This document shows positions 3,383-46,116 of a DNA stretch of 52,692 bases, in pieces (positions within the stretch are counted from its first letter, which is position 1; the number at the start of each line of letters is the position of its first letter). Location of the stretch: IMG/VR virus record IMGVR_UViG_3300010885_044795, positions 1-52,692 of that record. The stretch is one strand, 5' to 3'. The notes under the pieces are model-generated. The model had not been told where the DNA came from and made no database searches. It worked only from the letters and a program-made list of their open reading frames with translations. The DNA comes from a virus. The translations under genes were made by a program, and so were the position numbers.

Positions 3383-4069
3383 TTATACCTGCGAACTTAA
3401 GTTAGTTAGAGTTTGAACACGAATCGTGTAGTCAATTTGTATAAGACGATTTAAACTTTTCTGAATAGGGTGAAAGATAACATGAGTTAATAGATTACCT
3501 TTATCAACTGTGCTACCATTCCAACTCTTAATACCAAGTTCGTCAAATACAAATGTATCATTAAAGTTTGTAGTATTATCAAATGCTTGTTGACCATTTG
3601 GCTCACCATAATCAAGGGTGCAGGTAATAAAGATATCACTATATACTGTGCCAGCAGTGTGACGAATTTCAATCTTATTACGTGTTGGATCATTATTATA
3701 AATGCTATAATTGTCTACAACTTTATAATATGTTTGATTGTAAAGTGCGCTATTGCTACCAGTTGTATTCGTTGGAAGATATGTAATAACACCAGTTGGG
3801 TCTACAGAGGTTCCACCATTACCAAATGCCATTTCATGAATCCAACCTTGCTGTGCATTGCTCACGCTTTGAGCAAGCGCATAGCTGAAGTTTTCATAAT
3901 GTATAGCATTGCGCTTGTTTACAAATATTTCACCACTTTGAGGGTCAAATATCTTTATATGTCCACTTACTGCAATGCCACCACGTTCATTAGGTTGATT
4001 CATTTTTTGTTTTCCGCTATCTATACCAGTAGATGTATTTATTGGTTTAATTTGCTCTGGTTTTTTCAT
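3383..4069 (-). CDS. Conserved virion structural protein, role unknown
   Basis: A 228-residue protein. Residues ~33-75 read GHIKIFDPQSGEIFVNKRNA then IHYENFSYALAQS, followed by IHEMAFGNGGT. I recall this combination from structural proteins of marine T4-like phages, but I cannot give it a T4 gene name. The N-terminal ~30 residues are charged and probably flexible. The remainder is strand-rich with many Asn and Thr, ending in a short YTIRVQTLTNL strand. The ATG shares one base with the stop of the giant gene (TAATG), suggesting coupled translation and a role in the same assembly, probably linking baseplate to fibres. Confidence 0.6.
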   Translation of the reverse strand: MKKPEQIKPINTSTGIDSGKQKMNQPNERGGIAVSGHIKIFDPQSGEIFVNKRNAIHYENFSYALAQSVSNAQQGWIHEMAFGNGGTSVDPTGVITYLPTNTTGSNSALYNQTYYKVVDNYSIYNNDPTRNKIEIRHTAGTVYSDIFITCTLDYGEPNGQQAFDNTTNFNDTFVFDELGIKSWNGSTVDKGNLLTHVIFHPIQKSLNRLIQIDYTIRVQTLTNLSSQV

Positions 4070-7000
4070 TATTGTGACCTTATAAACTCTGCATATGGAT
4101 TTGTAGAATCTTGTAAGCTAGTTCCAAAATTCTGAATAAGTGTTCCTTGTCTTATATAACTGTTTGCACTAACCAACATTTTATTTGATATACCTTGATT
4201 TATAGTAATTTTATCAAGAATTTGTAAATTTGCATTCGCATTTACAGTCTGATTACTGCTTATTGCAATTACAATATAAGGAGCACTGTTGCTTACATTT
4301 GTAATAGTAGTTGATGGGTATAAGTTACCACCAATTATAGCTTGACCAATCATTGCATTGCTTACAGTTGTATATGTGTTGCTTATATAAATGTTGCCAT
4401 TGCTGCTTGTGATATTAGCAAGCGCAAAAGTTCCTAAGTTCACATTACTGTTAATAATTACGCTATTTTCACTTATTACATAATCACTATTAGCAGCAAG
4501 AGTTGTTGAATTTTTAACAACACTTACCTGAACAACGGCATTTGCGCTATTATTCATGATCGGAACAAGTGGAAGTGTTCTATTAACAATATTATTGCTT
4601 GTATAACTGTTAGCATAAGTTGTAAACAGCCCACTGCTTATATAAGTTGCAATAGGTGTTTGAACATAAGTTTCACGGCTATTAGGTATTTCTAAAGTGC
4701 TGCTGCTATCATAAACAGTTGTGCCTTTAACAATTACATTTGGTGTTCCTGTGCCAGCGGTTCCACGACGCAGATTACCTAAACGATTATTAACACGATC
4801 TAAAATACCATAAGAAATGCGTTCACCATTTATAATAACAATACCTGCATCGTTGGCAGTATTACCAGGTGATTGCAAATAGTTTACATTATCAACATAA
4901 ATGTAACTTGCATTTGCATTAAGATTTTGCGTAAGTATAGGTTTTTTTGACTTTACAGCATACAATCTTGTATTTTCACGCATATCTTTGAAAATTCTGT
5001 ATTCAAGAGTGCTTTGACGCACTGGATCACCAAATATACGAACAGCGATAACACTTGTGGCACTTATATTAAGAGCAGTATCCAACACTATTGTAGTTGG
5101 AGTTACTAGTTTGAAATCACGATATGGCAATAGTGGGAAACCACCAGTTGTAAATGGTGCTTTATGTGTAATATAAATTTGATTGATATTTGTTACAGCA
5201 CGTGGTAGAGTATAATATACTGCACCAATATAACTGCTTAACTCGTTATCAAATCCAACGCTATCAAACCCAGTAGTATCCAGACCATTGTCAATAACAC
5301 TTGTATTAGTTGTGCTACCACTGAACAATTTGGTATATTGTTCATTAGGATCGTGATTGCCTTGTGTCAACACAGTAAGTTTACTATTATTAGTAATAGT
5401 TACTTGAGGACTTATCCATAATTGATTGCCATAAATCTTGAAATCACACTGACTACTGTCACTTATAACAATTCTTGCACCACTTGATGGTGCAACTGTA
5501 AATTGTATAACTGGTGTAGCTGTATTTGATGGATCATGATATACCGTATAATCTTGACCATTAACCTGTGTAACATTATCAACTACAACTATAATTTCAG
5601 GGTCAACAATATTTGCAATTGTTTCAACCCAACTATTAGTCATGCTGAAATTAGTAGTAACACCATCGCCAAAATAATAGCTTTGTTGTGGTGGTAACAA
5701 ATCACTGCCATTTAGTCGAACAATTGGGAATGAGCTTACAGGTTCAACATAAAATTCTGCACGGTTCAATGTAAAGTTATAGTTTACTGGATAAGTTGCA
5801 CTTGGAATGATAAATGTTTGCTCATACCATTCGCTATATGCTGTAGTTCCAAGTGCTACGTTATAAAGATGAATTTGAACATAATCATTTGCGCTCGGTG
5901 CAGTATTAAATCTTACAGCAAGTAATGTTCTGCCGTTTTCAAGTTTGTTTACCAAACTCCAGTTAGTTACCAATTGTCCATTAATCTTTACATATGCTTG
6001 TTGAATTGGTGTTGTAACAAAATCTGGAATATCAAAATCAGTTTGAACACCATCTGCATAATAATCAAGATCATCAACTGGTGTTACACCATTGCTACCA
6101 AACATAATCACATAAAAGAATGTGCCAGTTGCTGGTGTATAAAGTGTTGTAATTGTTTTTGCTTGATAGTTAACAGTATAATGATACGTTTCAGCAATTG
6201 GACCAAGATTGCGGTCAATCACGTAAAACTTTTCAATACCACCCTGTGGTAATGGCACACCAGTTATTGCTGGATCGTAACTAAAGGTATTGCTACCAAC
6301 ATAGTTACTTGTAAAGATCATAATATCTGGTCCACCATTGCGATCAGGCAATGTATTAACCTTGATATCCAACGTATCAACAAGTTGACCAGGCACTAAC
6401 TCTTCTGGTGCATGACTGCTATAAGTGTCAATAAATCCACCACCAACTATATCAATATCTTGTGGACGCAGACCCAAACCTGTATCAGTAAACAAACTAC
6501 GAATGATAGTATCTTCACTTTGAACACCATAGATGTCATAAACATTTTCAATGTCTTTGGTTGAATAATCATATGGAATATAATCATAATAGTTTACATC
6601 ATAGCCTGGAACTTGATTAAATCCTGGTCCAATTACTTGGTTGCCTGGATAATAAATTCCTGTCATAACTTGTGCAAGGTCACGACCAGCCATACCACTC
6701 AATGGTGAATAGTAAGCCCATACACGGTCACAAGCATTATCTAACCATAGACCGCTATAAACAGACAAGTTTGTAGTGGTAAATGTTAGACCACTTGTGA
6801 AAGCAGTAGTTACAACATAACTACTATTATTATAAACAACAATGTCATTTAAGTTATAAGTTGTTTTAGGATACCAGACTTTAACAATCAATACCAAGAA
6901 TTTTGTAGCATCAAATGTTGCACCACTTGTATGTGCTATAATGCATCTATACGGAAGTTCTTGGTGAACAACAACATCGTTGACAGAATAATTTGTATTT

Positions 7001-10000
7001 GCTGACCAATCTTTTACATTATTAAAATATTGATTACGATCAAACTTTATAATGGCATTCATGTTTCTTGAAAGGCTAGTGCCTATCACTGCTTCAGCTT
7101 TTGCACCAACACCAATACCATAAATTTCAATATTAGCATATGTATAATTTTGTCCAGGTTTAATAACTTCTATTGTATAAACGCTACCATTAAGAATATA
7201 GGGTTTTACAACAGCGCCACTACCATCACCAGTTACAACTGCAGTCGTTGAACCATCATAACCAGCACCACCATTAACCATAGTTACAAGGTCAATGCTA
7301 TATTTGTGATTATTAACCCATGGTTGATATACTGCTGTGTAAGTAAGTGCATCAGTATCTAGACTGTTACCAAGCTGTGGACTGCGATATTGACCAGTCA
7401 AACTATTTTTATATGGTTGTAAATCAAAGTCAGTGATGCTTGCATATGCTGTATCAATATTATTGCCGTTATCATATATTGCAACATACTGTTTAAGTTT
7501 TGTATGATATGGTTTAGCTTCATTAAAGAAATCGGTTACTGTATTTTCTGGTTGTGGTAGATAAACAGGCAACTGATCCAAACCACGAACACGATGATAT
7601 AGGTCAACAAGACTTGTTTTCATCTGCCAATCTGTTTGTTGGTGTTGACTTGCAACTATATCAATAAGCAGCGCAATAGCTTCTTTATATTCACTGCGAT
7701 ATTCATTGATAAGAAGATAATCACGAATAACAGCAAATATAGCACTAAATTCAAGACTGCTATCTGTATCAAATCCTACACTTTGGTAACTACTTGTTTG
7801 GAATCCTTGTGAGGCTGCAGCAAGATTATAAAGGTTCGAAGTAAATTGTATAGTTGCATTTTGTTGTGCAACCAATTCAAGATCATTTGTGTTTACAAGA
7901 ACTAGTTTCCATCCACCACTATTACTATTTGTAACATAAATCAAATCATTAACATTCAATGTTAAATTAGCAATGTCATTTTCAGTTGTGACTGTATGGT
8001 TTACTGGTGCTTGCGAATTATATTTTGTGCTATACCAATCAGCATAAGTCCAATAATCATTTACATTGTAAGTTTGCACACGAACATATTCCCAACGTCT
8101 TACATAACTTACTGTGTTAAACACTAGTTTAAACAAACTCCAACCATTATTATAACTGTTGCTATCTTGCAGAACAAGGACTTGTGTTCCAATAGGATAA
8201 GCAGCGGTGTTAATATAACCAAGTTCAGTTAAGTTGTTAACAGTAAGTGTATATTCGGTTGAATTAGGTATTGGATCAATATTGTTTAACTGATTAATAG
8301 CATCACTGCGAGTTAATACCATTGGATATTTGATACAAATTTGGTTGATTTTTTCAATGTACAACATACGAGCATAATAGTTGTCTTTAAAGAGGCTTTG
8401 ACGCAGATCAACGCTCATACCATACTTTTGACCGATTGGAAGATTAAAGTCTGGTACAATACGACCGCTTACATCTTGACCTGTTAAACTATCGTTTAAC
8501 TTGTTTAAGAACTCAACTGCAACACCTAAATCACTACCATCATCAAACATAGTCCATTCGCTATGAATAAGTTGTGGTTCAAGTGTGTTTTTGTATTCAA
8601 TAGCAAGATTTGTATCAACACTTACTAGATTTTGTGCATTAAAGATACCAATTGCATTTTTATTAATTACTGCCGCAAATGGTTCATTGTTATTACGTGG
8701 ACTTATAAGTGCTGCTTGTATTTCACGTGCACTTGGTCGATTTGCATTTGCAAGAATACTATTTTTTACCCAGAAATAATATTTGGTTACAGCTTGTCCA
8801 GTTTTTTCATCGATTGTAATTTGTGAACTATAAACATCATTGATTGTATAAAGTGGCGTATTGCTGGGGCTGCTTCCCACATAATTCTTTGGTTGAACAT
8901 CACTTTCAATCCATTCATAAATGTTAATGGTGCTTGATGGAAAGGCAAGACCCCAATAGTTAAAGCGGTTAACATTATTACCTTGTGTGTTATCATAATA
9001 TTTTATACTATTGATATCCCACCATAGTTTACCAACTTGTTCACTGCCCCATGCATTTTTGCGATCAAAACTAAAACTTATAGTTGTTGGCACTTGATTA
9101 TAAACAGCAGGATCATAGTTTACGGTATAATCAATATAACTTTCGCTACTATTTGGTAGATAACCATATGGAAGGTCAAGAACTGGTAATTCAGTAATTA
9201 ATCTTGCAGTCGTGCTATTATACAGATAAACACGGTCAATATTACGACTATCATAATCAACGCCGCCGCTGCGAATAGTTTGCCATACAGGTGCAGCATT
9301 ATGATTATAATAGATATACATTGCACCTACTGGATTACCTAATAGATGTGCGTGCGGTGCTCCTACCATTAAAAAGTTATCGCTGATGTCAACACCACTT
9401 GCATAGCGGTCGTAGCTATTTGCAAATTGATCTTGAACAAGACTCGCATAAGCAAAACTGCCATAGTTATTATAGTTTTCATTGGCAAGGGTTTGGTATT
9501 CATAAAGATGAGCAGCACCACTGCGATATACAGTATCACGGAAGCGTGTTCCATAACGATCAAATGTAGTAGTCTTACTATCAAACGTAACGGTAGTTTT
9601 TGTATTTGATAGTGTGCTTCCAACAACCATACTGTTAGCATCTGGACTTAAAGCAAGTATTTCACCAAAACGTGCGGTGTCTTGAGCAATCGGGTTAGTA
9701 AGTTTTTGCACAAGCTGCCATTGTGTGATACCAAATGTGCCAAGTATATCACTGCCTTCATTACGAAGTTTAAGCATTGGCATTGCAGTAGTATCACTGC
9801 TACTAATATAGATAGCACCGTTTGGTGTTTTGCCAGCAGTAACATATGGTATCTTCGCATTGTTTATTGTTGTTATAACTTGGTCAACATTGCTTCTATA
9901 ATAAATTGGAGCATAAGGTGGTCTAAATGTTTGACCAAATGTTACAAGATAATCATTAATTCTTATTGTGCTGTTTGCAGCAACTGTCCATCCAGTTTTA

Positions 10001-13000
10001 CTACCAACAACATTACCATACATTTTTGGAATATTAATTAAACGGAACACAGCACCGTTTTGTGTGCTGCTTGTAGCATAACCAGGCGCACCACTGAATA
10101 CAACTGATCCATTTCGATCCATCTTTACAGCAGAACCATAATTACTGTTTTCTTGTCCTACATCAGTATAAGAAATTACAGTATTAACAAACTGATTTGT
10201 TTCTACTCTTACAATGCTACCATTTGTAGGAGGTGATGCAAAGGTAACTTGATTAGTGTTTACATTAAACACAGCAAGTGTTTCTACAGCATCTACAGTT
10301 ACACTTGGATGTGTAATAAGATTTGGGGTTGTGATTGTAGTAAGACTACTTAATGCATTGCTTAATTGGAATGTTTGAACACTACCATTTGCAACAAAAA
10401 TTTCAGCAGTGCGGTCATAGATATAAGTTTTACCGCTGTTAGCCAGTGTTGTTACACTATTAACACTGCTGTTAGCAGCACCAATTACAACAGTGCTACC
10501 ATCATAGTTTGTGCTTACGCTTGTGCCAAATCCACTTGCATCTGGATCATCAGTAACAATGCGATTAACTTCTGCATAGTGATCTTCATATACAAGATTA
10601 ATAATATCGCTTGCACTTGGTGCTACATCAAATGTAATAATATCTTGACCAGGTGTTTTGATATAATCAAAATTTGGAATTTTAAGAATGCCGTTTACAT
10701 ATACTTTAATATCAAGTGCACTGCCAGTTGATCCAGAAGGATAACTGAAACTGGTTTGTGAACCATCGCCTTGACGCAAACTGCTATTTGCATTAACATA
10801 GGTATATTTGTAAACATAAACACTGTTTGTTGTTGGCTCACCAACATACAACCATTTACCATCACCACTTGTGCTTATACTATAACCAAAGTTACTGTTA
10901 GGCTGCACATTTGGATAGATGCCAATTTTTGTAGATGCGCCAATGTTAACATTACTGCTTACGCCAAGAACATTATAAGCAGGTCCGATGAACAAATTAC
11001 TTATAACAGTGCCATTTGCAAGACTTGAACTTATAACAGGTTGACCGTTAGCAACACCATATAGACTAGTAGCACCACTTACAATAAAATGGTTATTAGA
11101 ACTTGTTGCTACACTTGTTACACCGCTTTGAACAACGCCAGCATTTGTGCTTACAAATGTAAGTAAACTTCCACTTGGAACTGTTACGTTGGTGCTTAAA
11201 GTTAAAACCTTATAGCCAGTGATGTTGCTTATATTAGCAATATAAGTTCCGTTTGGAATACCGCTGCCAATAACAGGCATAGTGTTTGCCATTATACCTG
11301 CAATGCTTTGTCCTGTATTGCCAATATAGACATTTGCATTTGCACTCGTAACGTTTGCATAAAGTGTAGTATAGATACTGCTATTAGCTTGTAGAATTGT
11401 AGCACTTGTGCCATTTGTAATACTATAAATGCTTGAATTGCCATTTGATGCAGAAAGAACAATATCATTGGTCGCAGCTTTAGTAGTAACACTTGTAATA
11501 ACTGTACCAGCATTTACACCTAAACCACCAACACCCATACCAACTTTGAAGTTAGCTACACTATAACTTGCTTGAGCAGCAATATTTGCAGTGCTATCAA
11601 AACTATAAACAGTTGTAAGCAAGATGCTATTATTAGTTTGGCTGAAGCCAGCACTTATAGCATAAAGGTTATCATAGTGAATTGCTTGAGTTAACTTCAC
11701 TTGTTGGCTGTTCACGTTAGCCGCATAAACAATACCTTTAAATGCACTCGGAGCACTTACGATTGCAAAATTACTGTCATTTATATCAACATTTGCGCCA
11801 AAGGTTGTGACACGACTGTCTGGTGCTAGAATACCAATTTCTTGGAATGAATTATCTTCACGCTTGCCATACACAAAAGCACTGCCAGTGCCATTTTTAT
11901 TGCTACTACCAACTACAGTAAAACCTTGTGTTGAATTAATTCTTACGCTGCTACCAAAATTATCGGTTGGTCCAGTAAATACTGGACTCTTGGTTTGTGT
12001 GTAAATCCAGCTATTGCTGTTTTGAAGTACATTATAACCATTAGGACCGTTATCAATATAAACAATTTCATTGGTATTCCAACCACGAACAGGCACAAAG
12101 TTACTAAAATCATTTGCTGTTGTATAACGTACATCTACTAGTTTGTAAAGTATTGCGTTAAGTGCACCAGTGCCTATAGTTGTGTTATCAGCAATCTTTA
12201 CATTAAATGTTGTATTCGTAACACTTCGCACACGATAAAAACCGCTCATATCAGTAACACTGCCACCAGTTGTTGGCGCAGAAATACGACCATTTTTAAG
12301 CATAATATAATCATATGCAACCAAATTATGTGGCAGATTTGTAGTAAACTGCAGTTCAGTTGGACTTAATTGATTAATATAAGTTACAAATACTTGGCCA
12401 GGTTGACTTAAACGATATACTCCCCATTGGTTAGCACTATCTGCTGCAACCCATACTTTACTGCCTTCACTTAATATTGTGTTAAGTGCGCTTATATTAT
12501 AAATCTTATTGATATCATAAACAGTTGCATCAACATCATTTGGACTTACTGGACCAGCAGTTGGTATAACTTCTTTATTGTTTTGTGTCTTTGCAAAGAT
12601 ATCTGGTGTATATGTGCGTGGCTTATACAGCAAATCGCTTGGTTTAATTGTGTTGGTGTGTGCAATACGTTGATCAGTTTGATTAATAAGTTCAAACAAA
12701 TATTGGTTATTGATTGTGATAGCATTACCAATATTAAATTCTAGTTTGTCGTTCTTATTAGTACCACCGTAACTATCAAGTTTAATTGCCCACTGTTCAA
12801 CTAACTTAATATCACTGTCAATACGTTTTTGTTTGTTGCGAAGATAAGCATTAAGAACAGCTTGTGTTCCTTTTTGACTTACCATACCAAGATAGAACTT
12901 ATATTGACTAGTGTTATCTAAACCTAAATCAGTGAAGTACTGTCGTGGACTAAATCCTGTTTCACTCTTACTCAACAAATCAGCAGCACTGTTAAGATCA

Positions 13001-16000
13001 GTAGTATCAGGATCATGGAAATTAATAAATTGTGCGGCACCACTTGCCATATTTGGAATAAGATTTTTACTTAATAAATCACCGTTAATAAGATACCAGT
13101 TACTGCTTTTAAATTGTGCAGTACCTGGTATAAAATTTTGTGCAGCATAATACTGATTCTTGAATAGAATAATATCGCCTTTATAATAATCAGTATAAGC
13201 AACCCACTGTGGAATTTCACTTACGTTTACAAAGAAACCAGGCGCATAAAGACTGCCATTCCAATCATTTGTTTTTGCGCCATCAAGACGTAATCGGAAT
13301 TGACGACTGCCAACTTGCTCATCATAAAGAATATCATTGAACACAGTATTGTTATCAAGTATAAGTGTATGTTCATACTGAATGATTGCAAGGTCTATAA
13401 GATGCACACCTTTTTGTGCGTTCTTGAGTTCAAGTTGGAACAAATTATCTCTGCGATATACACGATAATCGCTGCCAGTAAGTGTAACATTATCACTGTT
13501 AATAACTTTAGTATAATTGTTTGTGTTTGATAGAGTATCAACAACACCAAAGGTGCTTTCAAATCTGATATTTGTGCCAGCAGGTGTAAGAGAGATAATA
13601 GTATCATCGCCCCATTGCTGTTGATTCCAGAATAAAAATTCTTTAGCTGCTAGAACCCAGTCGCTTTTAGTAGTCTTATCGCCTAAAAATTCTTCAAATA
13701 CAAAACCCTGTGATTGTAGATAACGACCATAACTTACAAGAAAATCTACTACTTGTTGCTTTGTATTAAAAATACTGCCATAAGGATAGCTATAAATGTT
13801 ATCGCTGCTATCTGTATAAATGATAGCACGTTCATTGCCCACACTTATAGTATAATTGTTATTGCTCACACGACTTGGAATAGTCAAGAAGTAAGGGCGT
13901 TCACGATCAAATCCACGAACTTGATAACCATTTACAACTTTCTGCACAATTACTGCGCTATAAACAGCACGAGCAACAGGCGCACTCTTGGTTACTTTAA
14001 CAGTGTAGTTTTCTTGTGGAATAATAACACTGCTGTTAGTGCTTTGTGGACTTACTTGGTCAGCAACAATAGTAAGATAACTCTTGTCAGTAAAAGAACC
14101 CATCTTATAAACAAGATTGAATGTGCTGTTTTCTGCTACATTGATCCAGTTCTCTATAATATCAAGATTGTTATTTGTAAGATAATCACGTAACCATACA
14201 TTGTAACCAGGTATAAAGTCACTATCACCAGTTGCACTGAAATCAAACTGACGATTATTATGCTTTTTATTAATGAACTGATTTAATAATGTATTATAAG
14301 TTAGGTCACGAGTGTTATACTTAAGCGCAGTCCACTCTGCTGGTTTTGCAAGACACCATGCCATCATAACAGCAAAAGGATAATCTACACTTCGACGCCA
14401 TGCAGTTTCAGCAGGACTTTGGTCACCTACTACCCAGTTTTGTGCAGCATAGTTTGCATCATAGTTACGCAATACCGAAAAGTTTGGATTCAATAAATTA
14501 CCATGTTCATCAACAGGAATAATGCTTGTAAGACCTGGTCTTGCATAACGACTATTATAGTAAGCATCATTTGGATTACCATTATAAACATAACCTGCTT
14601 CAAGATCGCTCCACAGAACGCCGTTTTCACTTGTATAAGGTGCTGGTCCATAGCGATTTGTCCACCATGTTGGACGTAAGGTAAAACCTAACATTTCCCA
14701 TGGTTTTGTGTGAGGATGATCGGTATCATAAAAATACTTGTAGATACCACGCCAGTAACCAGGTACTGGCTTACCAAATAATTTGTCTATGCCTGTTGCA
14801 TAGTTAAAAGTAAATGGATCACCTGTAACAGTTGAATTTGTAAAGATATCAACATTATTGGTATGTGCCCAACGTAAGTATGATGGTGCAAGTAATTGTG
14901 TCCACTCATCAATTGTATAGTTAGTAACACGAAAAGCACCTGGCACAACGCTACTTAAATCAACATCGCTGTTTTCACTATATGTTGTAGTGATATTATT
15001 ATAAACACGTTTTTCAAACTCAAGTAGAATATTATCACGATAATCATTAAAACCTTTTGTAAAGCTGCCATCATGACCAATTATGCCAAGCGTTGGCGTA
15101 ACATAGGTATTGTCTGTAAGTATTTCAGGTTTAAACTTCGGATACATACCAAGTTTAGTTGGGGTTGACGGAATGTTACAACCACGAGTGCTGTTATACT
15201 CATATACTTCAATCTTGTCGTTACGAGCAATTGTAACACTATCACTTATAGTAATTGTGCGATTACCAATGGTATAATCAATATTCTTTAAAAGTAGCAC
15301 ACTGTTAAGATAAACTAGCAGTGAACGATAGCCTTTTGTATCATCTGCAAAATCTTGAGTAAGATTATAACGACGATATGTTGTATTTGCAACTGTATAG
15401 CTATTTTTTATATAATTGGTTCCAAAACCAATCATATCAGTATAATAGAATGGCTGGCCAATATTTGCTACTTTACTGAACTCTTGTAGAACCAAATCTA
15501 AACTTTCACGATAGTTTGTTGGATTTGGAAATTCGGTGCTACTTATATAATTAAGCAATTGATTTTTGAAGATGTTATAGCTATCACTAGCATAACGAAT
15601 AAACTGCAGTGGGTCTACATCATGGTCAGCAAATAGCAGTGAAGCTGGTCGCATACTTGCACTATGTTGTAGAAGTTTACCACCAACATAGTTATAGTTC
15701 AAATCTCGGAAGTTATTTGCGCCAGCAGGTTCACCAACAAGGTCTAATAAATTATTTCCAATTTCAATAAGGTGATTACGAACTTGCCCAAGCGTAATAG
15801 TTGTAAATTCTGTATTCTCACTATTGTTAGTAAGATTACGTGGCATAGTATATGTTTCTTTATATGCAGCACTTGTGCCATAAATTTTTATAAAGACACG
15901 ATCATCTACATTCAAATCTTGGTTAAAAACAACCACACTCGTAATACTGCTTGTTTTGAGTGTATAAGTTGTATTTGATTGCAGCTTACCATTAACATAA

Positions 16001-18762
16001 ACAAATATGTTGTTTTCATAATAGCTGTTATTGTAAACAATTTTAAGATCAAAATTATTAAGTTGTACCGCACTTGCAGTATAAACTTTTGTAATATATT
16101 GCTTGCTCTTGTCACTTACACGTGACCAGCCATTAGCAAGAGTATAATTGTTCCAGCCAATAATAAGTGCAGCAAATCCCTGATTGATACTTTCTTTTTG
16201 GTCAACTTGATTTAAACTATACTGAAATGTATCGGTTTGATAATAGTTTTTGAAAACAATATCACCAAGATTGCCAATGCTCTTGTAAACAAGTGGAAAA
16301 CCTAGTTCACTATCACGTTTACCAGTTCCAACAGCATAACCAAAAAGTTCACTACCACTAAAATCACTACTTGCATAAACTGTTTGATCGCTTAAACTAT
16401 AGCCATTTTTATCAATAATATCAAACAGCGGAAATTGTGGGCGACTATTACGTATTTGGGCAATCTTCCATACACCATCTACAAAGTAAAACATGTTACC
16501 TTGGTTAGTAACACCTTCCATTGCAACTACACTATCACCATTCGTAAATGTTTTGATAGGAACAAGATGTATTTGATCATAGCTGTTATCAAATGTAATT
16601 GTAGTGCCTGCAGGAACATCTTGTGTTAATTTATTGCTTAAGTAAACACGATCAAGTGTTGCATCAATGCTTATGATTGTAGTATAGTTTGGAATACCTA
16701 GTCCAGTAACATGCTGACCTACTGCTAAATTTGCAATATCATTAATGTTAAGAATGTTTGAATTATTATTGCTGAAAGCATATGTGGTTTTATTATATGT
16801 TGCGCTTACACGAGTTTTATTATTTTGCACACGGTATAGCGTAGCACGCTTTACGGGATCGCTTTCTTTTGTAAAAATTACAGTCAAACCATTTAATAGC
16901 TGTATACCATCACTGTTATATACACCATTGGTTTTAACCGCATAACTATTAAATCCTTCTACTTGAGAAAAAGCACTTGTAGTGATACTATCAATACAAG
17001 TTACATTATCAACATAATTTGTTCCATAATTGTATAGTTTTAAGTTTGGTAAGAACTCAACAATAGGACGTTTTGCTTGTTGATTACTATCAAAACTATA
17101 ACTTACATTATTATAATTTGCTGCTGCTTGTAATACATCACGGTGGAACCAACGGTTATTGCGACTCCAACTATTGCCATCTATGCTTGCACGATTAATT
17201 GTAATATAATCTTTTTGCTCTGGACTATTTGTGGTGCCATCAAATCCTGTGCCATCAGCATCATAACCACGACTATTACCAAATGAACTACCAAGGTTAG
17301 TATTGATAGTTTCTGGCGTAACAAGGTCACTATACTTGATAAGTTTAATACTGTTACCAACACCCTCAACAATATATTCGTTACCCTGATATTCTTGTGG
17401 AACAACAACACCAGTAAACTTTACTTTAAGACCGCTTGTAAATTGCACACCATTAGGACTTGTATAATTTTTACGACCAAGAATATCATTTACATTTAAT
17501 AAACTATTTGGTTGTGGATCAACAAGCTGAATAGTTCCATAAACAAGTGGATTTGTAGCATCAACATAGTAAAGCACGTTTTGAGCAGCACTTAATGTTG
17601 GAAATTTTTGAACTATATTAAAGATATCTTTATAAGCATATACGTGACCATAAAAATCACCTTGAGTAACAAATACTTTGTTTAACACTGGCCAATCAGC
17701 AACATAAGTTAGACTCATAAGGCGATAATCAGGCTTTGTTGCATCATTGCCAACATTTATACGCCATACGCCACCCCATTGAGTAGAATCAACATCACTC
17801 CAACCAGTAGTGCTTGTAAGCACAATATATTTGCCATCAAATGCACGAACGCCATCTAAACTATGAGACAAAATAAATGAATCATAATTTTGTCCCTGTA
17901 ATTGTTCATATGTAATATAATCAACAACCAAATCAACAGTTTGATTAAGCGTTGTATAGTTAATAAGATAATCCTGTGCAGTGCTTAATGGAACTGTAAA
18001 AGTAATTTTTCCACTCTTTGCACCATTATCGCTTACACCCAATACATCACGTGTGCTTATATTATTTTGAACAGAACTTTCACCACTGGTTCCAATTTCA
18101 GTTTGAATCCAAAAATCAGTATCTTGATTAACATAAAAATTATAACTGCCACCACGAACAAGTGTAAGCGTAGGATTGATAACATTGGTATAACCGTCTA
18201 CGCTATAACCTGTTGCACCTAATGCAGCACTTTGTAGTTCAGTTTCATTGTTAGCAACATAACTGTTACGATGAATATAAAAATCTTTTTGTGTAGGCGT
18301 ATTCTCTGCAGTAACATCAACTGTGAGTGGACCACCTGGCACCCAATAATATTGACGATAGTTCGTTAGTTTATCAAGGTCAATAAAACCATTATAACTG
18401 TAATAACGGTTTGAAAACAATCTATCATGATTATTGTTAAGACCACCATCAGCACTTATTTGATTAAGCAAATCAACATAGTTATAAACATTATTAACTT
18501 TGTAGGTGTTAGTGCCATACTGACGTTTTTTAATTACAACGCCTGGTTCAAGTTGATAGAACTGACTGTAACTATCATTTTCATTTATATAGTAATCACC
18601 TTTTTCAAACACAGGACTTTGATCCTGTTGTCCAATGTAACCATACATCTTTTTAAGACTTGGTTCTTGAATAAGAGGGTCTATAGTGGCATTTAAGAAT
18701 CTGCGATTGCTTAAAGTTCTAAAAGTTTGTGGTAAAAAGTTTTCACTTTTACGTTTTGCCAT
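4069..18762 (-). CDS. Giant 4,897-residue baseplate/fibre virion protein
   Basis: A single uninterrupted frame of 14.7 kb (about 540 kDa), directly after gp6 where T4 has gp7/gp8; I recognise no T4 homologue. Visible modules: an N-terminal ~250-residue region (LPQTFRTLSNRRFLNATIDP); several fibre-type beta domains with a (V/I)YVNG..L.....Y motif near residues 950, 1160, 2680 and 4390; seven FG-GAP-like units (FGSSVRI, FGANVDI, FGYSIST, FGTSVST, YGSAVKM, FGEILAL, YASGVDI) between about 2265 and 3125, suggesting an integrin-like propeller with insertions; at least five copies of a VGM.V.G.GIP.GT..I domain near 680, 2405, 2495, 2570 and 4805; and three W...Y..(G/N)D(I/V)V carbohydrate-binding-like motifs near 1855, 3920 and 3970. 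No signal peptide or enzymatic motif is visible. The composition suggests a host-contacting peripheral baseplate protein (inference). Confidence 0.8.
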   Translation of the reverse strand: MAKRKSENFLPQTFRTLSNRRFLNATIDPLIQEPSLKKMYGYIGQQDQSPVFEKGDYYINENDSYSQFYQLEPGVVIKKRQYGTNTYKVNNVYNYVDLLNQISADGGLNNNHDRLFSNRYYSYNGFIDLDKLTNYRQYYWVPGGPLTVDVTAENTPTQKDFYIHRNSYVANNETELQSAALGATGYSVDGYTNVINPTLTLVRGGSYNFYVNQDTDFWIQTEIGTSGESSVQNNISTRDVLGVSDNGAKSGKITFTVPLSTAQDYLINYTTLNQTVDLVVDYITYEQLQGQNYDSFILSHSLDGVRAFDGKYIVLTSTTGWSDVDSTQWGGVWRINVGNDATKPDYRLMSLTYVADWPVLNKVFVTQGDFYGHVYAYKDIFNIVQKFPTLSAAQNVLYYVDATNPLVYGTIQLVDPQPNSLLNVNDILGRKNYTSPNGVQFTSGLKVKFTGVVVPQEYQGNEYIVEGVGNSIKLIKYSDLVTPETINTNLGSSFGNSRGYDADGTGFDGTTNSPEQKDYITINRASIDGNSWSRNNRWFHRDVLQAAANYNNVSYSFDSNQQAKRPIVEFLPNLKLYNYGTNYVDNVTCIDSITTSAFSQVEGFNSYAVKTNGVYNSDGIQLLNGLTVIFTKESDPVKRATLYRVQNNKTRVSATYNKTTYAFSNNNSNILNINDIANLAVGQHVTGLGIPNYTTIISIDATLDRVYLSNKLTQDVPAGTTITFDNSYDQIHLVPIKTFTNGDSVVAMEGVTNQGNMFYFVDGVWKIAQIRNSRPQFPLFDIIDKNGYSLSDQTVYASSDFSGSELFGYAVGTGKRDSELGFPLVYKSIGNLGDIVFKNYYQTDTFQYSLNQVDQKESINQGFAALIIGWNNYTLANGWSRVSDKSKQYITKVYTASAVQLNNFDLKIVYNNSYYENNIFVYVNGKLQSNTTYTLKTSSITSVVVFNQDLNVDDRVFIKIYGTSAAYKETYTMPRNLTNNSENTEFTTITLGQVRNHLIEIGNNLLDLVGEPAGANNFRDLNYNYVGGKLLQHSASMRPASLLFADHDVDPLQFIRYASDSYNIFKNQLLNYISSTEFPNPTNYRESLDLVLQEFSKVANIGQPFYYTDMIGFGTNYIKNSYTVANTTYRRYNLTQDFADDTKGYRSLLVYLNSVLLLKNIDYTIGNRTITISDSVTIARNDKIEVYEYNSTRGCNIPSTPTKLGMYPKFKPEILTDNTYVTPTLGIIGHDGSFTKGFNDYRDNILLEFEKRVYNNITTTYSENSDVDLSSVVPGAFRVTNYTIDEWTQLLAPSYLRWAHTNNVDIFTNSTVTGDPFTFNYATGIDKLFGKPVPGYWRGIYKYFYDTDHPHTKPWEMLGFTLRPTWWTNRYGPAPYTSENGVLWSDLEAGYVYNGNPNDAYYNSRYARPGLTSIIPVDEHGNLLNPNFSVLRNYDANYAAQNWVVGDQSPAETAWRRSVDYPFAVMMAWCLAKPAEWTALKYNTRDLTYNTLLNQFINKKHNNRQFDFSATGDSDFIPGYNVWLRDYLTNNNLDIIENWINVAENSTFNLVYKMGSFTDKSYLTIVADQVSPQSTNSSVIIPQENYTVKVTKSAPVARAVYSAVIVQKVVNGYQVRGFDRERPYFLTIPSRVSNNNYTISVGNERAIIYTDSSDNIYSYPYGSIFNTKQQVVDFLVSYGRYLQSQGFVFEEFLGDKTTKSDWVLAAKEFLFWNQQQWGDDTIISLTPAGTNIRFESTFGVVDTLSNTNNYTKVINSDNVTLTGSDYRVYRRDNLFQLELKNAQKGVHLIDLAIIQYEHTLILDNNTVFNDILYDEQVGSRQFRLRLDGAKTNDWNGSLYAPGFFVNVSEIPQWVAYTDYYKGDIILFKNQYYAAQNFIPGTAQFKSSNWYLINGDLLSKNLIPNMASGAAQFINFHDPDTTDLNSAADLLSKSETGFSPRQYFTDLGLDNTSQYKFYLGMVSQKGTQAVLNAYLRNKQKRIDSDIKLVEQWAIKLDSYGGTNKNDKLEFNIGNAITINNQYLFELINQTDQRIAHTNTIKPSDLLYKPRTYTPDIFAKTQNNKEVIPTAGPVSPNDVDATVYDINKIYNISALNTILSEGSKVWVAADSANQWGVYRLSQPGQVFVTYINQLSPTELQFTTNLPHNLVAYDYIMLKNGRISAPTTGGSVTDMSGFYRVRSVTNTTFNVKIADNTTIGTGALNAILYKLVDVRYTTANDFSNFVPVRGWNTNEIVYIDNGPNGYNVLQNSNSWIYTQTKSPVFTGPTDNFGSSVRINSTQGFTVVGSSNKNGTGSAFVYGKREDNSFQEIGILAPDSRVTTFGANVDINDSNFAIVSAPSAFKGIVYAANVNSQQVKLTQAIHYDNLYAISAGFSQTNNSILLTTVYSFDSTANIAAQASYSVANFKVGMGVGGLGVNAGTVITSVTTKAATNDIVLSASNGNSSIYSITNGTSATILQANSSIYTTLYANVTSANANVYIGNTGQSIAGIMANTMPVIGSGIPNGTYIANISNITGYKVLTLSTNVTVPSGSLLTFVSTNAGVVQSGVTSVATSSNNHFIVSGATSLYGVANGQPVISSSLANGTVISNLFIGPAYNVLGVSSNVNIGASTKIGIYPNVQPNSNFGYSISTSGDGKWLYVGEPTTNSVYVYKYTYVNANSSLRQGDGSQTSFSYPSGSTGSALDIKVYVNGILKIPNFDYIKTPGQDIITFDVAPSASDIINLVYEDHYAEVNRIVTDDPDASGFGTSVSTNYDGSTVVIGAANSSVNSVTTLANSGKTYIYDRTAEIFVANGSVQTFQLSNALSSLTTITTPNLITHPSVTVDAVETLAVFNVNTNQVTFASPPTNGSIVRVETNQFVNTVISYTDVGQENSNYGSAVKMDRNGSVVFSGAPGYATSSTQNGAVFRLINIPKMYGNVVGSKTGWTVAANSTIRINDYLVTFGQTFRPPYAPIYYRSNVDQVITTINNAKIPYVTAGKTPNGAIYISSSDTTAMPMLKLRNEGSDILGTFGITQWQLVQKLTNPIAQDTARFGEILALSPDANSMVVGSTLSNTKTTVTFDSKTTTFDRYGTRFRDTVYRSGAAHLYEYQTLANENYNNYGSFAYASLVQDQFANSYDRYASGVDISDNFLMVGAPHAHLLGNPVGAMYIYYNHNAAPVWQTIRSGGVDYDSRNIDRVYLYNSTTARLITELPVLDLPYGYLPNSSESYIDYTVNYDPAVYNQVPTTISFSFDRKNAWGSEQVGKLWWDINSIKYYDNTQGNNVNRFNYWGLAFPSSTINIYEWIESDVQPKNYVGSSPSNTPLYTINDVYSSQITIDEKTGQAVTKYYFWVKNSILANANRPSAREIQAALISPRNNNEPFAAVINKNAIGIFNAQNLVSVDTNLAIEYKNTLEPQLIHSEWTMFDDGSDLGVAVEFLNKLNDSLTGQDVSGRIVPDFNLPIGQKYGMSVDLRQSLFKDNYYARMLYIEKINQICIKYPMVLTRSDAINQLNNIDPIPNSTEYTLTVNNLTELGYINTAAYPIGTQVLVLQDSNSYNNGWSLFKLVFNTVSYVRRWEYVRVQTYNVNDYWTYADWYSTKYNSQAPVNHTVTTENDIANLTLNVNDLIYVTNSNSGGWKLVLVNTNDLELVAQQNATIQFTSNLYNLAAASQGFQTSSYQSVGFDTDSSLEFSAIFAVIRDYLLINEYRSEYKEAIALLIDIVASQHQQTDWQMKTSLVDLYHRVRGLDQLPVYLPQPENTVTDFFNEAKPYHTKLKQYVAIYDNGNNIDTAYASITDFDLQPYKNSLTGQYRSPQLGNSLDTDALTYTAVYQPWVNNHKYSIDLVTMVNGGAGYDGSTTAVVTGDGSGAVVKPYILNGSVYTIEVIKPGQNYTYANIEIYGIGVGAKAEAVIGTSLSRNMNAIIKFDRNQYFNNVKDWSANTNYSVNDVVVHQELPYRCIIAHTSGATFDATKFLVLIVKVWYPKTTYNLNDIVVYNNSSYVVTTAFTSGLTFTTTNLSVYSGLWLDNACDRVWAYYSPLSGMAGRDLAQVMTGIYYPGNQVIGPGFNQVPGYDVNYYDYIPYDYSTKDIENVYDIYGVQSEDTIIRSLFTDTGLGLRPQDIDIVGGGFIDTYSSHAPEELVPGQLVDTLDIKVNTLPDRNGGPDIMIFTSNYVGSNTFSYDPAITGVPLPQGGIEKFYVIDRNLGPIAETYHYTVNYQAKTITTLYTPATGTFFYVIMFGSNGVTPVDDLDYYADGVQTDFDIPDFVTTPIQQAYVKINGQLVTNWSLVNKLENGRTLLAVRFNTAPSANDYVQIHLYNVALGTTAYSEWYEQTFIIPSATYPVNYNFTLNRAEFYVEPVSSFPIVRLNGSDLLPPQQSYYFGDGVTTNFSMTNSWVETIANIVDPEIIVVVDNVTQVNGQDYTVYHDPSNTATPVIQFTVAPSSGARIVISDSSQCDFKIYGNQLWISPQVTITNNSKLTVLTQGNHDPNEQYTKLFSGSTTNTSVIDNGLDTTGFDSVGFDNELSSYIGAVYYTLPRAVTNINQIYITHKAPFTTGGFPLLPYRDFKLVTPTTIVLDTALNISATSVIAVRIFGDPVRQSTLEYRIFKDMRENTRLYAVKSKKPILTQNLNANASYIYVDNVNYLQSPGNTANDAGIVIINGERISYGILDRVNNRLGNLRRGTAGTGTPNVIVKGTTVYDSSSTLEIPNSRETYVQTPIATYISSGLFTTYANSYTSNNIVNRTLPLVPIMNNSANAVVQVSVVKNSTTLAANSDYVISENSVIINSNVNLGTFALANITSSNGNIYISNTYTTVSNAMIGQAIIGGNLYPSTTITNVSNSAPYIVIAISSNQTVNANANLQILDKITINQGISNKMLVSANSYIRQGTLIQNFGTSLQDSTNPYAEFIRSQ

Positions 18763-42225: not shown

Positions 42226-42649
42226 GGCTCATTCGGCATATAGGCTCATTGGCACCATAATCCCAAATAAGAAATATATTGAAGGTTGTCAGCACCCCGA
42301 CATTGCTGTATGGATAACGTTTGGCTGACGATAGGCTAAACGATGAGGCTCTGGGAAAAAGCAACCTCAACTACTATAAGTTCGTTAGCAAGGGTTTATA
42401 GTGGGTCCGTTGGTAAAAATCTACAGGAAGTGATGGGGTACAGGCTAACCGCCCCACTTGGTTTCAAGTTCCGTTTGCTAATGTCCTTATGATAGCTCAA
42501 ATGAAGCTGTTTGGATATGGATTTCCTGCTTAAGGAAATCTATGTCCAAAATCCAGTCTAAATGAAACTATTATTAATTCTCCTAGAGAAATGAAAGAAG
42601 AAAAGAAAGTGAAGGGACGACAGTCCCTGAACAGATGCCTACGGCATCT
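42226..42649 (+). ncRNA. Large structured noncoding RNA candidate, class unknown
   Basis: A gene-free stretch of about 440 bases with much more G+C than its surroundings (45 % and 52 % in two 60-base lines counted) and dense complementarity. Stems on the plus strand: 42286-42293/42324-42331 (8 bp), 42345-42348/42365-42368, 42373-42379/42396-42402 (7 bp), 42428-42431 plus 42435-42438 with 42452-42459, and a 16-bp hairpin 42511-42526/42534-42549 with a 7-base loop and two G-U pairs. TTAGCAA in the loop of the third stem (42385-42391) is perfectly complementary to TTGCTAA at 42475-42481, predicting a pseudoknot. GGCTCATT is repeated at the 5' end (42226, 42243). It is not tmRNA (no tRNA-like ends or tag), not RNase P, and I see no group I or II core. 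The 3' end is uncertain. Confidence 0.6.
42613..42649 (-). terminator. Tandem hairpins after the gp26-like operon
   Basis: Two perfect hairpins lie just beyond the minus-strand stop: 42633-42639/42643-42649 (7 bp, loop of 3) and 42613-42618/42623-42628 (6 bp, loop of 4). The second is followed on the minus strand by a pyrimidine-rich tract (TCACTTTCTTTTC). They sit between convergent genes and may also form the 3' end of the plus-strand RNA. Confidence 0.45.
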
Positions 42650-42879
42650 TAAAAGAAAGGCAAACCTGACTTCTTGGTAGTTTCTAAATTATCCTCAACG
42701 ATCTTGTTGATAAGATTTCTCTCATTAAGACTTAACTCATGTGCTTCGCTATAAGTTAATCCACCACGCATATACCAACAAAGTTTAAGTAAATTAGATT
42801 TTATAGCATTTACATCTTTTTCATATTTTGCCACTAACTCAAGAATTTCTTCGTGTTTAAGACTTAAGATAGTGGCTCG
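42649..42879 (-). CDS. -1 frame extension: tail-assembly chaperone T-like domain
   Basis: A 76-codon open frame overlapping the end of the gp26-like gene in its -1 frame. The sequence reads SLKHEEILELVAKYEKDV, then LLKLCWYMRGGLTYSEAHEL and ends TTKKSGLPFF. A GTG at 42834 could start a 61-residue version, but it has no ribosome site, and the conserved-looking helix extends upstream of it to the slippery site. Expression by -1 frameshifting would give a fusion of about 352 residues. The LSxxER pattern and position resemble the T domains of lambda gpGT-type chaperones. T4 gp51 lies next to gp26 and could be the counterpart (inference). Confidence 0.6.
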   Translation of the reverse strand, partial: RATILSLKHEEILELVAKYEKDVNAIKSNLLKLCWYMRGGLTYSEAHELSLNERNLINKIVEDNLETTKKSGLPFF

Positions 42880-43706
42880 AAAAAATTTGCATAATCAAAA
42901 GTAATGCTTACACTATATTCTGTATTACATTCTTCACATGATATTTTTGGTTTAGGTAGTGCAACCATATCTGCATATTGTTGAAGTTTTTCTTTAACTG
43001 CACGTATTACAGAATTGTTAGCATTCTCATAAAACTCCATAATATGTTGTGGATCAACTACTACTATGCCATCTTCTGTTGTAATGCTTACTGTGCTTAA
43101 AGCAATAATATTGTTATTGGCTTCAATAATTTTTTGTAAATGCACTTCAAATTGTGCTTTGCGTGTTTCACTATCAATATTTTCATCATTGATCACCTGT
43201 AGTAATCTTTGTTCTTCAAACTGCATGATATTATTTTTAGTGCTTTGCATATAATTCAATGGTTTAAATCTTATAGTCAATCCTTCTATGGCGAGAGTAT
43301 CATCATAGTTAGGACTGCGTAATGAAGTTAATAGCCCACTTATATTATATTGATTGCGGTTTTCTGCTTTACAATGTGGACATTCACTATCAATATCCAT
43401 ATTTTCGCCGTAAGTTGCAATACGAATAGCAATAAGAATAGCATCAACATCAATAGTTGGTGTAGCCCATGCATTTAAGATTTGTGGTATGCAGCTTTGC
43501 ATTACGCTTACTACACCTTGACCATTCATAAGTGCATCAGGGGTGCGAAGCAATATTTCATCTTTGGCTGTCATTGGCATTACGCCTAATTCATTGTTTG
43601 CTGGCATTTCAATAGTATTGGGTAACCAATATTTGCCATTGCTTGGTAGTTTTAAAAATACTGCTGGTTGGCGAAAATGCTTTGTTAATGGGTTGCTTGA
43701 CATCAT
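42864..43706 (-). CDS. gp26: gp26-like baseplate hub/tail-assembly protein
   Basis: 280 residues from the ATG at 43706; a TTG ten codons upstream has no ribosome site, and a second ATG follows at 43703. Family features: AVFLKLPSNGKYWLPNTIEM, then ELGVMPMTAKDEILLRTPDA, VMQSCIPQIL, IRIATYGENMDIDSECPHC. Two CxxC pairs (C109/C112 and C257/C260) suggest a zinc-binding unit. T4 gp26 is a baseplate hub assembly protein. Here the gene is divergent from the tape-measure gene and ends with a tandem slippery site, arguing for a chaperone role in tail-tube/tape-measure assembly. Confidence 0.78.
   Translation of the reverse strand: MMSSNPLTKHFRQPAVFLKLPSNGKYWLPNTIEMPANNELGVMPMTAKDEILLRTPDALMNGQGVVSVMQSCIPQILNAWATPTIDVDAILIAIRIATYGENMDIDSECPHCKAENRNQYNISGLLTSLRSPNYDDTLAIEGLTIRFKPLNYMQSTKNNIMQFEEQRLLQVINDENIDSETRKAQFEVHLQKIIEANNNIIALSTVSITTEDGIVVVDPQHIMEFYENANNSVIRAVKEKLQQYADMVALPKPKISCEECNTEYSVSITFDYANFFEPLS
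42879..42888 (-). promoter_or_regulatory. Tandem -1 frameshift slippery site
   Basis: The minus strand reads AAATTTTTTC in phase GC-A AAT TTT TTC. It contains two canonical X XXY YYZ heptamers, A AAT TTT and T TTT TTC. Slipping -1 on either leads into the same open frame of 76 codons. The zero-frame stop follows four codons later. Confidence 0.65.
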
Positions 43707-43770: not shown

Positions 43771-46116
43771 ATGACAGAAATAAGTGACGTAGAATTAGAA
43801 AATTTTAACAATGCTATAAAAGACGTTAATACTCGTTATGGCGACTTGAATAGTTTGTTAAAAACTATGAACGCTTATACAACATCAGGTATAAATGACA
43901 AAAAAGAAGAACGTGAACTATTTCGTCGTATTATACGAGAAAGAAAAATAGAAGAAAAAGAAATACTTGAATCACGTCGTAGGGGTACAATCACTGCAAA
44001 ACAAGCAGATATTGCGCTTAAAAAGTTAAATCAAGATATTTCGGAAGTAATTCCTGATAATTTGCAAGGTGAATTTAAGAAAGTTATCGAAGTCTCACGT
44101 ATTTTGGTAAAGCGTGAAGCAGATTTTGCTGATGCTGTTAAAGTAACAACACCAACTATTAAATTTATGGGTTCTACTGCTGGAATAGCTGGCAATAGTT
44201 TAAAAGGTTTTGTTGATAGTTTTACAAAAGGTGGCAGCGATATAAGTGCAGCTACAAGTTTTACAAGTATTGCCTTAAATGTCGTTGCCGATACAACGAA
44301 AGCCACTGGTGATGCGTTAAAAGAAACAGGTAGTGCCGTAAGCGGTTTGGGTAATACTACATCCAAAGCTGGCAAGGCAATGAAAATATTTGGCGGCGCA
44401 CTTGAAGTAGGTGGCTTTGTATTAAGTTTCTTTGGCAAAGGTTTAAGTGAACTCGCCAAATCTGCAATACCAATTTTAAATGCAGAATTAGAAAAAACGT
44501 TTAACTCATTTTTACAAATCAGTGCTAGTGGTGCTATTTTTACTAATGGTTTAAATGGTATGATTAATAGTGCTACAGCATCATATCTTACACTAGATGA
44601 ATTTAGTGATGTTATTAAATCAAACAGTGAAATTTTAGCCAAATCTGGTTTAGGTGTAGCTGCAGCCGCCACACAAATAGGTAATGTAAGTATAGCACTT
44701 CGCCGTGGCGGACTTGACAGACAACTTTACAATTTAGGTTTTACATATAAAGAACAAGCTGAATTGGTTGCTGAAACTATGGCACTTATGCGCCAAAGTG
44801 GTGGCAGACTAACGGCAAGTGATGCAGTTGTTGCAGAACAAACTCAAAAGTATGCAGAAAATCTACGTATTATTGCTTCTATTACTGGTGAAGATGCAAA
44901 ATCTAAAATAAAAGCTGCACAAGAAGCTGCAAATGAATTAGCATTTCAACAAAAATTAGCTGGAATGGATGAAACTACTCGTGCAGGCACTATAGAAGCT
45001 ATGGCTAGTATGAGTGATATACAACGCAAAGCCTTTATGGAACAAGTTGTATTTGGCACACAGATTACACGTGAAACTGCTTATGCTGTTAATAATATAG
45101 CTGGTTTAGGTGAAAGTGTAAATGCCTATGTTCAAGCATTTAATGATAGAACTATAAGTGCACAAAAAAGTTTAGAAATACAAAATCAATTTGGTGGCAC
45201 TATTAAAAATGCACTACTTCAAGAACAAGACCTTGCACGTGCTGGCATGGCTAATATTGATGTTGCTAAAAGTTTAACTGATGCCTTTGGTAAAGAACTA
45301 CAATTCCGTAATAAATTTACTGAAGATGCAACTGCGGCTGCTGCTCGTAATGTTACGGCGATTGAAGAAGGTGGTGGTGGAAAATTACAAAAATCAATGT
45401 TTGATGCAGCAGAAGCTGCTCGTGATTTAAAAATAGCAATTCAAAGTGAATTGCTTGGTAAAGAGGGTGCTATTTTTTCATATGCAAGCGTTGTAAAAGA
45501 AGCAAATCAAACAATTCTTGATGCAATCAAAGCGTTGAAAAAAGAAAAAGGAATACCTGAAAGTGGAAGTAATACTACAACAGAAAATCAAACATTTTTG
45601 GGACCATATTTTAAACAGTTAGGTGAAACTTTTGCTTGGTTGAAAGAAAACCAAGCTATAAGCAAAGGTTTATATGGAGGTGCAGCAGCAGCACAACTGA
45701 CAGCGGCATTAACCGCACCAGCGGCTGTTTCTGGAATTGGTGCCGCTGCGCCTGTAAGTGCAGGGACAGTTGCTGCAGTTCTAGGTGGAGCAGGTTTTGT
45801 AGCAAGTTTATTTGGCTATGCAGATGGTGGTATTGCAAGTGGACCTACAAGTGGATATTTGGCAAAACTACATGGAACAGAAGCAGTATTGCCACCAGAT
45901 TTAACAGATATGTTGGTAAGTTCTGCAACAACGTCATCACCAGCACAAATTGTTGAAGCATATAATAATTTACAATCAACCACAAATCAACACCTTAATG
46001 CAACACAAGATACAAATGAATTGTTATCAATGCTTAATGAAAAATTTAGAGACATGATCGAACTCATGGATGATGTTGCTGGTAATACACAACGCACTGC
46101 TGCACGTGTTGCATAA
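43771..46116 (+). CDS. Tail tape measure protein
   Basis: 781 residues, Ala/Ser/Lys-rich and mainly helical. The C-terminus FGYADGGIASGPTSGYLAKL then HGTEAVLPPDL is the classic end motif of tape measure proteins (DGGxxxGP...HGTEAV). Hydrophobic segments at about 203-225 (MKIFGGALEVGGFVLSFFGK) and 650-690 fit membrane insertion during DNA delivery. Helical N-terminus (KKEERELFRRIIRERKIEEK). It is the functional counterpart of T4 gp29 (590 residues). At about 1.5 angstrom per residue it would specify a tail near 115 nm (rule of thumb). Neighbours are the gp26-like/chaperone pair (divergent) and the portal gene. Confidence 0.85.
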   Translation: MTEISDVELENFNNAIKDVNTRYGDLNSLLKTMNAYTTSGINDKKEERELFRRIIRERKIEEKEILESRRRGTITAKQADIALKKLNQDISEVIPDNLQGEFKKVIEVSRILVKREADFADAVKVTTPTIKFMGSTAGIAGNSLKGFVDSFTKGGSDISAATSFTSIALNVVADTTKATGDALKETGSAVSGLGNTTSKAGKAMKIFGGALEVGGFVLSFFGKGLSELAKSAIPILNAELEKTFNSFLQISASGAIFTNGLNGMINSATASYLTLDEFSDVIKSNSEILAKSGLGVAAAATQIGNVSIALRRGGLDRQLYNLGFTYKEQAELVAETMALMRQSGGRLTASDAVVAEQTQKYAENLRIIASITGEDAKSKIKAAQEAANELAFQQKLAGMDETTRAGTIEAMASMSDIQRKAFMEQVVFGTQITRETAYAVNNIAGLGESVNAYVQAFNDRTISAQKSLEIQNQFGGTIKNALLQEQDLARAGMANIDVAKSLTDAFGKELQFRNKFTEDATAAAARNVTAIEEGGGGKLQKSMFDAAEAARDLKIAIQSELLGKEGAIFSYASVVKEANQTILDAIKALKKEKGIPESGSNTTTENQTFLGPYFKQLGETFAWLKENQAISKGLYGGAAAAQLTAALTAPAAVSGIGAAAPVSAGTVAAVLGGAGFVASLFGYADGGIASGPTSGYLAKLHGTEAVLPPDLTDMLVSSATTSSPAQIVEAYNNLQSTTNQHLNATQDTNELLSMLNEKFRDMIELMDDVAGNTQRTAARVA

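Follow-up and report, generated by a model that had tools for sequence, protein, structure and literature searches.

A conserved slip site near the end of gp26 very probably gives one gene of a giant T4-like phage a short and a long tail assembly chaperone

Does the gp26-like gene of a giant T4-like phage end at its own stop codon, or is it also read, one base back, into the small open reading frame beyond? The question is posed by the window analysed here (the whole 52,692-nucleotide stretch of IMG/VR virus record IMGVR_UViG_3300010885_044795), which also encodes T4-like portal gp20, head protease, major head protein, baseplate wedge, hub/lysozyme, SbcCD-like and late sigma genes. It contains, in addition, a gene for a 4897-aa virion structural protein (phrog_10938; 4069-18762, minus strand), very large for a phage gene. 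An earlier reading, made from the sequence alone, had proposed that a programmed -1 frameshift joins the two frames. The lambda G and GT proteins and their counterparts are a short protein and its -1-extended long form, with a slip site near the 3' end of a gene next to the tape-measure gene; the sequences of G/GT-type ORFs differ strongly between phage groups, and G-T frameshifting is described as widespread in long-tailed phages 'except T4' (Atkins 2016 review, PMC5009743). The T4 gp26 and gp51 proteins are hub assembly chaperones (PMC3004832). The argument turns on the following features, with positions given in the window.

42867..43706, minus strand: gp26-like gene, predicted short form of a tail assembly chaperone (ATG at 43706, TAA at 42866-42864, 280 aa; PF12322, phrog_150)
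42882..42888, minus strand: heptamer A AAT TTT, in -1 phase and overlapping T TTT TTC; the sole heptamer in relatives L047 and L094
42879..42885, minus strand: T TTT TTC, the -1 slip site and conserved heptamer (102/105 gp26 loci and 80/80 further cyanophage-type loci)
42830..42876, minus strand: hairpin, possible stimulator (stem GCCACUA/UAGUGGC and an inner stem), 2 nt past T TTT TTC and 5 nt past A AAT TTT
42652..42878, minus strand: -1 frame extension of 76 codons, stop at 42651-42649, all helical in the model
43771..46116, plus strand: probable tape-measure protein (781 aa), presumed chaperone client, divergent neighbour of gp26

The gene on which the shift would operate is a gp26 relative over most of its product: residues 25-277 align to positions 14-219 of the PF12322 profile, above the curated cut-off (E 2.7e-16; 60.4 bits against 24.5), and the profile search also matches it to phrog_150 (baseplate hub; E 1.4e-19). 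The program-made ORF list starts this ORF further upstream, at TTG 43736. In AlphaFold2 models, for which gp26 and the extension were treated as two separate chains with alignment rows from the window and IMG/VR only, gp26 has a pLDDT of 91 that falls below 50 only at residues 275-280, at or beyond the slip; the predicted disorder starts exactly where the slip does. Foldseek comparison of this model with BFVD returned gp26/hub assembly and baseplate hub proteins of T4-like phages, with E-values as low as 1e-23 and TM of about 0.5-0.9, and the window gp26, as modelled, has the fold common to other members of the gp26 family. Among solved structures, neither gp26 nor gp51 had a significant match by sequence, and Foldseek with the models found nothing at E <= 0.001; VIA-align gave middling matches to long helices, mostly over residues 133-249, that weigh neither for nor against a relation.

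The 3' end of the gene reads GCA AAT TTT TTC GAG CCA CTA TCT TAA on the minus strand. As the sequence-only reading had noted, two overlapping canonical -1 heptamers stand in the correct phase, four codons (E P L S) before the TAA; all that this reading gave as fact about the site holds. Relatives were drawn from isolate genomes and 80 IMG/VR loci, making 105 homologous gp26 loci in total; the three that do not have in-phase TTTTTTC carry A_AAT_TTT (two loci) or T_TTT_TTT (one, Xanthomonas phage XacN1). Among 64 representatives with <70% identity to each other the exact in-phase TTTTTTC occurs in 62, with G as the next base in 58 of those 62, and the gp26 stop is variable, lying 2-13 codons past the slip site. 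From the encoded residues and the codon use of each gene, TTTTTTC would be expected at a rate of ~10% per lineage; the joint log10 P of about -62 for this conservation is descriptive, since the lineages share ancestry and are not independent. Phe-Phe pairs elsewhere in the same gp26 genes are spelled in many ways, with no fixation of codons. By these comparisons, conservation of the slip site is more than chance. A sequencing error in the T run, which would have removed the basis of the proposal, is ruled out because the run is conserved across independent assemblies and isolates. Across the family there was no enrichment of a Shine-Dalgarno-like stimulator 5' of the slip site, and a search for an Rfam family over the slip region found none.

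Beyond the slip, the -1 frame encodes FF-RATILSLKHEEILELVAKYEKDVNAIKSNLLKLCWYMRGG...GLPFF and is open for 76 codons, to 42649, as had been claimed; in every locus that no contig end truncates, it continues open past the gp26 stop. Substitutions in this frame, counted over 34 independent pairs, fall mostly at third positions (524/311/1066 by codon position); amino-acid identity is 75%, and there are 0 stops, where the other two frames have 506 and 467. Judged by this pattern, the extension is coding and under purifying selection. Its AlphaFold2 model (pLDDT 88) consists of helices at residues 2-8, 11-38, 45-50 and 53-73, the first of which begins at the slip FFR. Directly 3' of the extension stop lie two short inverted repeats, AGATGCCGTAGGCATCT and GGGACTGTCGTCCC (about 42600-42650, minus strand), which perhaps mark a transcription end.

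The hairpin just 3' of the slip site has a predicted stability of -18.3 kcal/mol (z -4.4), which was matched by 0 of 200 shuffles. Both of the nearest relatives, L035 and L055, preserve its outer stem, L055 with both partners of one pair changed. Family-wide, the stretch just 3' of the site is more strongly structured (mean z -0.7 to -0.9) than other parts of the gene (about -0.2; Mann-Whitney p 7e-4); in several relatives downstream structure is absent. The usual distance from slip site to hairpin is 5-9 nt, and the 2 nt from T TTT TTC in the window are closer. This hairpin probably helps ribosomes to slip.

A conserved programmed -1 ribosomal frameshift that generates a short/long tail-assembly-chaperone pair from one gene is, we are confident, the best explanation of this locus; in this giant T4-like phage a single gene very probably makes both a short and a long tail-building helper. 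The majority of ribosomes would read gp26 to its own stop and yield the short chaperone. A smaller share, whose tRNAs stand on AAT-TTT or TTT-TTC, would move back one base on the T run and, probably aided by the hairpin, translate the further 76 codons to yield the long chaperone. If the two forms act as lambda G and GT do, the gp26 part common to both would coat the tape-measure protein, and tail-tube subunits would be brought in by the helical extension.

The presumed client of these chaperones adjoins the gp26-like gene in divergent orientation. That this neighbour is the tape-measure gene, as the sequence-only reading had it, is made probable by its position and by the annotation of relatives, in which the gene at the same position is called 'putative tape measure protein' or 'similar to ... 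tail tape measure protein'. Profile support is lacking: a profile search of 43771..46116 returned no profile that names the product, and tblastn of the window protein in phages found no match. Its C-terminal YADGGIASGPTSGYLAKLHGTEAVLPP resembles the ends of tape-measure proteins. In SP-15 and the immuto phages the gp26 gene has the tail tube region on one side and an annotated tape-measure gene directly downstream. This gene order in SP-15 and Flavobacterium immuto, together with the lambda G/GT model and the tape-measure neighbour, suggests that the gp26 pair may chaperone the tape-measure protein.

Annotators file the small ORF as a separate gene, and among the annotated isolate records examined no joined gp26-extension product is annotated. 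Read in that way the ORF would have its own start, or be reached by termination and reinitiation after the gp26 stop, and no frameshift would occur; cyanophages do conserve an ATG, one codon beyond the end of gp26, and may therefore make a stand-alone product additionally. In the window, however, the nearest -1-frame start 3' of the slip is GTG 42834, which has no ribosome site (this, too, had been seen from the sequence alone), and the first in-frame ATG is only the 37th codon after the slip and likewise lacks a Shine-Dalgarno-like sequence. Among jumbo-branch representatives the small ORF has no positionally conserved start, and a start with 4 or more SD bases occurs before codon 20 in only 15 of 62; the annotated starts vary between relatives and truncate the conserved N-terminal part. 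A separate gene would also leave unexplained an invariant T TTT TTC that is followed by a moving gp26 stop, as well as the T4 gp51 fusion. With neither a conserved start nor an SD, a separate gene with its own start was rejected, and the wider alternative, reinitiation included, is very improbable. What homologues keep is the slip site and the open -1 frame and not the start, the opposite of the outcome that the sequence-only reading had named as evidence against itself, and this supports the frameshift.

The same fusion could in principle be made without any ribosomal slip if RNA polymerase added a U on the T run in some mRNAs, since a homopolymer run exists and an inserted U yields the same frame. 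Six T's are short for polymerase slippage, however, and the run is almost never longer among relatives; L047 and L094 have five T's only and yet carry an in-phase A AAT TTT, which fits slipping by tRNAs. Transcriptional slippage at this site is, in our estimate, highly unlikely. That the T run is a mere trace of a Phe-Phe pair at the gp26 end, followed by the remains of a decaying split gene, scarcely deserves credence: FF is indeed conserved in the protein, T4 gp26 included (KEFFELL), but the codon choice and the preceding third base are fixed too, far above the roughly one lineage in ten expected, other FF pairs in the same genes have no such fixation, and the downstream frame is under purifying selection.

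The frameshift reading extends beyond the jumbo branch. Cyanophages such as Synechococcus phage Sf-FS3 have the identical T TTT TTC and -1 extension; they differ from the window in their shorter gp26 (240 aa) and in the conserved ATG just past the gp26 stop, which may give free gp51. In all 80 cyanophage-type loci the slip site leads into an ORF annotated as gp51, 'baseplate hub assembly catalyst'. These loci (L124-L203) keep both the slip site and the ATG, and gp51 may be made in them as a fusion and alone. T4 gp26 and gp51 are of the same protein family as the window gp26 but are encoded in T4 by two divergent genes with no slip site, where the window has one gene: T4 gp26 reads GAG TTC TTT GAG at the slip position, which is not slippery, and gene 51 is separate. 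The gp26 family therefore does not strictly need the shift.

The relation of the two T4 proteins to the two products of the slip-site genes is brought out by their spans. In T4 gp51, residues 1-201 match PF12322, and the match to phrog_150 runs as far as its position 280, against 235 for gp26. Positions 231-277 of phrog_150 are matched by the cyanophage extension, which shares with gp51 a match to phrog_634. Pairwise alignments, scored by pairwise E-values, are end to end for the jumbo and cyanophage fusions (99.9%) and for the cyanophage fusion and the T4 gp51 family (97.7%, 234 columns including the extension); the jumbo fusion aligns with the gp51 family at 89.9% over 203 columns. Since the jumbo extension alone gives no significant match to gp51 (1.5%), the link between them runs via the whole fusion and the cyanophages. 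By these matches T4 gp51 is a gp26 domain with a homologous C-terminal extension and corresponds to the long form, gp26 to the short form; T4 appears to carry the two forms as two genes. The earlier suggestion that gp26/gp51 are the T4 version of the G/GT pair is supported by the PF12322 and phrog_150 spans and by the cyanophage fusion that aligns end to end with gp51. In an unrooted 42-row gp26/gp51 tree, T4 gp26 and gp51 (the latter on a long branch) share a clade (95/95) that lies next to cyanophages with the slip site; the jumbo branch stands apart (98/98). A gene duplication that replaced the frameshift in the T4 line would fit. The heptamer is missing from one further locus, that of Pseudomonas phage Cygsa01 (L112, about 3280-3320), in which the gp26 stop and the start of the next gene overlap or nearly do so; coupling may have replaced the shift there.

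A second kind of shift is suggested by a sister branch. In Flavobacterium immuto, Mel-JY01, SP-15, RM378 and related phages (L204-L283, L108, L021, L109-L111 and L113) the extension at the gp26 3' end is in the +1 (or -2) frame. In immuto-like phages the gp26 end is nearly invariant, TTT [C/T]T[T/A] TGG CCT GA(C/A) in 61 of 62 loci, and substitutions in the sister-branch shifted frame number 185/118/436 by codon position. The immuto-like site is reminiscent of the prfB +1 site with its CUU U core, and a conserved, putative +1-type shift in a phage chaperone gene is indicated for this branch. We lean slightly towards a history in which frameshifted chaperones are ancestral to the entire T4-like superfamily, T4 and its kin having given up the shift for a duplicated gene, with gp26 as the short and gp51 as the long copy, and the sister branch (immuto, SP-15, Mel-JY01 and RM378 types) using a +1 (or -2) shift, placed in immuto-like phages at [C/T]TT TGG, at the same protein position.

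A chaperone pair made by frameshifting is of a known kind, that of lambda G/GT, and the window is a new, well-supported case of it, not a new kind. Common to lambda G/GT and the window gp26, compared by arrangement, are an in-phase slip site near the 3' end and an open shifted frame, which in the window would likewise yield a short protein and a -1-extended long form; the neighbouring gene in the window is a probable tape-measure gene. The window gene is a gp26 (PF12322) relative that diverges from this neighbour, where lambda G/GT lies upstream of the tape-measure gene. The TAC gene of Vandenendeviridae/Andersonviridae, formerly annotated as a separate hypothetical gene, uses a -1 shift on a GTTTTT motif (PMC12846349). 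Compared by mechanism, it is like the window in being a myophage TAC gene with a -1 shift on a T run; it differs in its motif and in lying directly upstream of the tape measure. For T4-like phages, TAC genes were identified by Vladimirov et al. 2022, who, as relayed by the PRFect paper (PMC10885494), found separate short and long genes in some of them and, as relayed by the Adele paper (PMC12846349), poly-T slip signals in their chaperone genes. To call the arrangement notable for a T4-like phage, as the sequence-only reading did, was therefore too strong: as far as that work is represented in the papers citing it, the gp26/gp51 idea had largely been proposed already, and it is T4 itself that is the exception.

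Evidence from many relatives suggests that the frameshift is common to large branches of the T4-like superfamily, T4 itself excepted. A large group of giant T4-like phages, with many environmental contigs, would join those that set the ratio of their tail chaperones by frameshifting, and an ORF that records list under 'hypothetical protein' or 'baseplate hub assembly catalyst' would really be the end of gp26. The relation offers a reason why T4 needs gp26 plus gp51, two proteins to which contradictory roles in hub assembly have been ascribed. What the ratio does could be tested cleanly by comparing the cyanophage and jumbo forms and, if the proposed history is true, a single family holds a natural series in which the same ratio of proteins is set by three different means.
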